Source: Bacteroidota bacterium (GTDB taxonomy: Bacteria; Bacteroidota; Bacteroidia; B-17B0; Aurantibacillaceae). Taken from it: DNA of 64,000 nt. The stretch spans positions 1 to 64,000 of the forward strand of contig JANYGK010000048.1 of assembly GCA_025362395.1 (NCBI GenBank), written 5' to 3'. The notes under the pieces are model-generated. The model ran no database searches and had not been told where the DNA came from. It worked only from the letters and a program-made list of their open reading frames with translations. The position numbers and the translations under genes are program-made. This document shows, one piece after another, positions 9,855 through 30,205 of the stretch; the first letter of the stretch is position 1, and each line of letters starts with the position of its first letter.

Positions 9855-9881
9855 CATGATATATTTACTGATAGTTATTTT

Positions 9882-10031
9882 ATTTTCTCTTTTCTTTTTT
9901 CTTAACAAAAAAGAAACAAAAAGTCAAAACGAAACTCCAACTGCAAGTGACCCCGCTCATGCTCTACAAACCTGCAGTTCGCACCGTTTCATTAAAGCAG
10001 CCGCACTATTACCAACATACACGGTGACGTA
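9882..10031 (+). repeat. Structured intergenic repeat element, copy A
   Basis: This about 150-bp element aligns end to end with 29961-30107 in the same orientation. Hairpin 1 pairs 9894-9900 with 9907-9913. Hairpin 2 has an outer stem GAAAC/GTTTC (9931-9935 with 9986-9990) and an inner stem AACTGCA/TGCAGTT (9939-9945 with 9973-9979), separated by a 3-nt and a 6-nt bulge. The outer stem differs from copy B but pairing is kept. A 14-nt block CGCACTATTACCAA (10002-10015) is identical in both. It occupies the aroC to symporter gap and explains the short ORF there. Confidence 0.75.
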
Positions 10032-29882: not shown

Positions 29883-30205
29883 TAACCACACAGTCACATA
29901 GAAGCGAGAAGGTTTAAAATATAAACCTATGTTTCTATATTTAGTATATATTTTTTCATGATTTTCTCTTTTTCTTTTGACTGAACAAAAGAAACAAAAT
30001 TCAATCCAATTCGCCAACTGCAAACGGCCCCGCACATTCTTACCTAGCTTGCAGTTCGCACCGAATTGGAAAAACAATCGCACTATTACCAAGATATGAG
30101 AGACGTATTAAACTCCGATCTTATGTCTCTAAGGTCAAAATAGTCTCTAATCCCTTTGTTCCTTCAGTCTCTTTAATCTTCTCTCTATGCTTCTATGTGG
30201 TTTAT
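29883..30205. repeat. Inverted repeats flanking repeat copy B
   Basis: CACATAGAAGC (29895-29905) and its exact complement GCTTCTATGTG (30189-30199), extended imperfectly by AACCACA and GAGAAG, lie on either side of copy B of the structured element. The enclosed span is about 320 bp with no ORF of note. This resembles either a MITE-like unit or two independent repeat families placed together. The rest of the gap 29874-30360 holds T-rich low-complexity sequence (30115-30185) and the promoter of the next gene. Confidence 0.55.
29961..30107 (+). repeat. Structured intergenic repeat element, copy B
   Basis: It aligns end to end with 9882-10031. Hairpin 1 is CTTTTG/CAAAAG (29974-29979 with 29986-29991). 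Hairpin 2 has an outer stem CCAATTC/GAATTGG (30006-30012 with 30063-30069) and inner stem AACTGCAA/TTGCAGTT (30016-30023 with 30049-30056), with the same 3-nt and 6-nt asymmetric bulge as copy A. CGCACTATTACCAA is at 30079-30092. The outer stem sequence is different from copy A although both pair fully. Confidence 0.75.

Follow-up and report, generated by a model that had tools for sequence, protein, structure and literature searches.

A covarying intergenic repeat in a Bacteroidota genome is probably a mobile DNA element, possibly with a folded single-strand end

Two intergenic segments in a 64,000-nt stretch of Bacteroidota DNA (referred to here as the window) can be drawn as the same pair of hairpins built from different bases. 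What kind of element is this, and at which level is its pairing kept? The original prediction, made from these two copies, offered three options: a non-coding RNA, a 3'-UTR element, or a REP-like mobile unit. Both copies are present where they had been placed, in the same orientation, and they align end to end (Table 1). Hairpin 2 has the inner stem AACTGCA/TGCAGTT in both, and its outer stem differs, being GAAAC/GTTTC in copy A and TCCAATTCG/CGAATTGGA in copy B. Hairpin 1 also varies and yet pairs (TTTCTTTTTT/AAAAAAGAAA in A, TTTCTTTTG/CAAAAGAAA in B). The downstream 14-nt block CGCACTATTACCAA is exact in both copies, at 10002 and 30079; a pair of matches to it at ≤2 mismatches also occurred in 11 of 100 shuffles, so the block alone is not rare. 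In DNA folding, copy B was lower than all 200 shuffles (z = -3.0) and copy A was modestly low (z = -1.9). The predicted limits, 9882-10031 and 29961-30107, were right as to location, and a flank conservation profile of 81 to 88 copies, in which conservation ends sharply at both borders, corrected the ends to approximately 9878-10030 and 29958-30107.

Table 1. Positions of the two copies and their parts in the window.
Feature	Position	Strand	Details
Copy A, whole element	9878..10030	+	intergenic, with aroC (chorismate synthase) on one side and a dicarboxylate symporter gene on the other; ends from conservation profile
Copy A, head hairpin (pseudoknot stem 1)	9891..9916	+	TTTCTTTTTT-CTTAAC-AAAAAAGAAA
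Copy A, pseudoknot stem 2, 3' strand	9923..9927	+	GTCAA, imperfect pairing with loop TTAAC; helix supported family-wide
Copy A, body hairpin	9931..9990	+	outer stem 9931-9935/9986-9990; inner stem 9939-9948/9970-9979; asymmetric internal loop separates the stems
Copy A, conserved tail	10002..10030	+	CGCACTATTACCAAC...; family consensus CGCACTATTACCAACGTATGAGAGACGT
Copy B, whole element	29958..30107	+	ends from conservation profile
Copy B, head hairpin (pseudoknot stem 1)	29971..29994	+	TTTCTTTTG-ACTGAA-CAAAAGAAA
Copy B, pseudoknot stem 2, 3' strand	30000..30003	+	TTCA with loop TGAA; helix supported family-wide
Copy B, body hairpin	30005..30070	+	outer stem 30005-30013/30062-30070; inner stem 30016-30023/30049-30056
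Copy B, conserved tail	30079..30107	+	

Judged by sequence, the two window hairpins are members of one repeat family, ~150 to 160 bp long with sharp ends. A DNA search of the genome with copy A returned copy B at E = 2.9e-17 and about 20 more places below 1e-8. Across the 4.1 Mb of this genome, a covariance model built from 18 of the own copies gave 30 hits at E ≤ 2.5e-4. Together, these searches exclude the possibility that the genome holds no further copies. The model also detected the element in every one of 19 congeners (1 to 38 copies per genome), and its spread across the class is patchy (19 of 295 sampled genomes positive at E ≤ 1e-4, this one included). With a separate model for the 40-nt 5' head alone, matches were obtained in 59 of 395 genomes of the phylum, often with other bodies behind the head. 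Same-strand arrays of heads occur in relatives; at four loci (L351, L352, L356, and L358, in genomes G150, G103, G317, and G493), heads with other bodies are arrayed in tandem at a spacing of ~290 to 385 nt amid ordinary genes. The sole match in plasmid and phage collections was one 41-nt head on a Persicobacter plasmid. No earlier description of the repeat was found in the literature searched, literal head sequences included, a search that covered few subscription journals.

Alignment of the copies indicates that one strand can fold into two parts, a pseudoknot head and behind it an imperfect hairpin in two tiers, with the pairs kept as Watson-Crick. The head is an H-type pseudoknot that consists of a stem 1 of ~10 bp, nearly all A/T; the loop CTTGAN; an A-rich linker that tends to echo the A-tract of stem 1; and a strand that pairs with the loop to form stem 2. 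Both hairpins of the original prediction are real, and what it overlooked is a fourth helix, in which the hairpin 1 loop pairs with bases right after that hairpin. Stem 2 variants include CTTGAA/TTCAAG, CTTGAC/GTCAAG, CTTGAT/ATCAAG, CTTGG/CCAAG, TGTCC/GGACA, TGGCC/GGCCA, and TGGGC/GCCCA. The mean loop-partner length was 5.35, a value reached in none of 200 shuffles of the partners between heads (4.57 when shuffled). In the window, stem 2 is degenerate, copy A having 4 of 5 pairs and copy B 4 pairs, and it is strong family-wide. The body consists of an outer stem, a conserved asymmetric internal loop (RCC versus CGCACC), and an inner stem that carries a mismatch at one position in 25 of 36 copies; the tail, CGCACTATTACCAACGTATG, comes next.

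These helices were examined in two alignments, whose covariation and wobble counts include related copies, so that the cells are not independent. Among the own copies (alignment A2), 90.7% of cells were paired, with 82 two-sided changes (0 of 500 shuffles as high), and sliding the partners cut pairing to 32 to 51%. The 36 congener copies (alignment A5) were aligned by sequence only. Because the model had been used to find them, their pairing, at 91.9% with 147 two-sided versus 16 one-sided changes, is not wholly model-independent; sliding the partners here cut it to 35 to 60%. All four helices covary in the congener alignment, and stem 2, which lay outside the search model and had first been recognised by eye in the own copies, holds at 94%. 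The idea that pairing is kept while bases change is thus confirmed on many copies as a pairing-preserving process.

How did the copies come to lie where they do? We compared two own loci, aroC-symporter and eamA-rplU, at which only this genome has the element. The aroC-symporter order is kept without the element in 17 congeners, mostly with spacers of 18 to 50 nt; in one further congener (L284), no symporter gene turned up in the locus. The eamA-rplU order is kept in 18, all without the element. Since these orthologous spacers are element-free and gene order is kept, both loci hold what is, on this comparison, a lineage-specific insertion. Neither an exact empty-site junction nor a target-site duplication could be fixed. 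In the aroC-symporter spacer, other congeners hold different short palindromic repeats (L285, L290, and L291), as if insertions were readily accepted there. The rplU spacer has a conserved promoter that we take to be of the Bacteroidota type, in agreement with the phylum. Copies are intergenic and occur in either orientation relative to neighbouring genes (28 same-strand versus 25 opposite; p = 0.78), and they lie in convergent spacers more often than in divergent ones (28 versus 7; p = 0.0005), so that divergent promoters are avoided. On a tree of 94 copies, the own copies cluster, with 5 changes versus at least 19 in 200 shuffles. The element-free congener spacers, the indifference to orientation, the avoidance of divergent spacers, and the clustering together argue for copying within the lineage. 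Of the three options, the REP-like mobile unit is therefore the one that stood, although not as a strict REP, and we consider it highly probable that the family is mobile DNA, leaving the folded-end step aside. Elements that use single-stranded DNA at the replication fork are often biased in orientation; here no bias relative to GC skew was seen (p = 0.22), in a genome where the skew is weak.

Strong covariation alone is no proof of an RNA, and a wobble test separates the two levels. RNAs tolerate G-U, and G-T pairs would therefore be expected to exceed A-C on the transcribed strand. With mismatch-rich columns excluded, the element has 35 G-T (1.4%) and 49 A-C (1.9%) in 2575 cells, and the congener alignment has 15 and 11 of 997. 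A small control set of 19 tRNAs from the same loci gave 32 G-T in 415 cells (7.7%) and 0 A-C (Fisher p = 4e-10 versus the element). Because G-T is no commoner than A-C, unlike in the tRNAs, the pairing appears to be maintained in DNA rather than in RNA. A structured non-coding RNA, or a cis-acting 3'-UTR RNA element whose fold acts after transcription, would suit the strong covariation of pseudoknot and hairpins and the frequent position of copies directly downstream of a gene. However, the absent wobble tolerance and absent orientation preference disfavour both of these originally proposed options, as do the varying copy number, the orthologous spacers that lack the element, and the lack of a match to any curated Rfam family; we regard an RNA as distinctly improbable. 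Without the wobble test, such repeats could be annotated as non-coding RNAs. The convergent excess, together with a T-rich tract on the minus strand behind the body stem, might instead reflect a repeat that terminates transcription in both directions or stabilises mRNA ends and that spread through its usefulness at gene ends. Selection against promoter damage would give the same pattern, though, the head stem is almost wholly A/T, and the same spacers are element-free in congeners that keep the gene order, which makes such a role very unlikely. Still less can be said for a degenerate coding fragment, which has next to no credibility: some copies are open through the tail, in a frame ending ...TITNV-stop, and by eye a few changes fall at third positions, but lengths between fixed points are distributed evenly over the three remainders modulo 3 (15/19/19), and none of the frames stays open throughout the copies. 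A coding origin was rejected by this frame test.

We propose that the copies are short mobile repeats of a REP/MITE-like kind, non-coding and non-autonomous, that each carry a folded single-strand end and are moved in trans by an enzyme, and we give this reading a probability of roughly 0.6. The fold would form in single-stranded DNA, its unpaired asymmetric features would tell the strands apart, and a trans-acting enzyme, perhaps by way of the pseudoknot, would read it. The likeliest kind would be a handler of folded DNA ends of the HUH/tyrosine type known from IS200/IS605 and REP systems. Selection against promoter damage may then leave copies mostly beside gene 3' ends. Taken alone, the reading of a folded single-strand end in trans is tentative, at somewhat less than an even chance. 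The missing wobble favours DNA-level pairing and template-switch homogenisation of inverted repeats alike, and template-switch repair could explain it without any reader of the fold. The folded-end mechanism is weakest in three respects: no enzyme was found, no junctions were fixed, and double-headed forms exist. Of 20 genus genomes, 10 have no Y1 transposase gene, G016 (37 copies) and G014 (25 copies) among them, and no element copy lies near the matched Y1 loci; on both grounds a Y1/RAYT-linked repeat was rejected. A DDE enzyme would account just as well for the double-headed forms of some relatives. Heads in G016 and G130 stand in outward inverted pairs ~220 to 490 nt apart and look like elements with terminal inverted repeats, as expected if the family were MITEs belonging to a cut-and-paste (DDE) transposon, in which the head served as terminal inverted repeat and the window copies were solo ends. 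Yet the window copies and nearly all others in this genome are single-headed with a different, conserved 3' end, no clear target-site duplication was seen by eye at ten double-headed units, and where an autonomous version was sought, in the intervals of paired heads and alongside arrays, the parts checked contained only ordinary genes or non-coding filler, with no transposase among their ORFs. We therefore consider a DDE origin unlikely. A broader extension of the folded-end proposal, conceivable but rather doubtful, is a phylum-wide class of mobile DNA in which a single-stranded H-type pseudoknot is the mobility signal for a family of enzymes so far unconnected with ends of this sort, with varied body modules behind a common head. 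If the folded-end proposal is true, a common Bacteroidota intergenic repeat would belong to the mobile elements and carry a folded end that is unusual and supported by covariation.

Several copies form part of composite arrangements. Copy B sits inside another inverted repeat (window 29884-29905/30189-30202; CACATAGAAGC/GCTTCTATGTG), and sequence like this enclosing repeat is also found downstream of other copies (L007 and L029). At L008, L011, L012, L016, and L020, a second, CGTC-REP-like palindromic repeat, GTCATTGCGAACGAAGTGAAGCAATCTCAC, lies directly upstream of the element. Double-headed units at L253 and L254 in G016 carry an extra outer hairpin, GATACTTTT...AAAAGTATC, beside the heads, and one unit is nested in another.

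Like REP elements, the repeat is intergenic, multicopy, and palindromic, and its stems vary with pairing kept. It differs from them in being ~150 bp long with a pseudoknot head and a two-tier body rather than a short stem-loop. CGTC-tagged repeats without a dedicated transposase have been reported in Bacteroidetes, and G-T pairs are often seen in GTAG stems (PMC3733652). In our element, by contrast, G-T pairs are not favoured, there is no association with a Y1/RAYT transposase, and neither a GTAG nor a CGTC tag occurs in the conserved columns or flanks. Strict membership among GTAG/CGTC REPs was rejected for want of a tag and of a Y1/RAYT link. With MITEs the element has in common that it is short, non-coding, dispersed, and multicopy, with lineage-specific insertions; unlike MITEs, the window copies are without a terminal inverted repeat, and double-headed forms occur in some relatives only. 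IS200/IS605 ends and integron attC sites are imperfect hairpins with unpaired, strand-marking features that are read as folded single-stranded DNA. We know of no counterpart to the head pseudoknot in either. Although no associated recombinase was found for the element, and its outer-stem sequence is not conserved and thus provides no attC core, it shares with these ends and sites the imperfect hairpins and the unpaired features that mark the strand.
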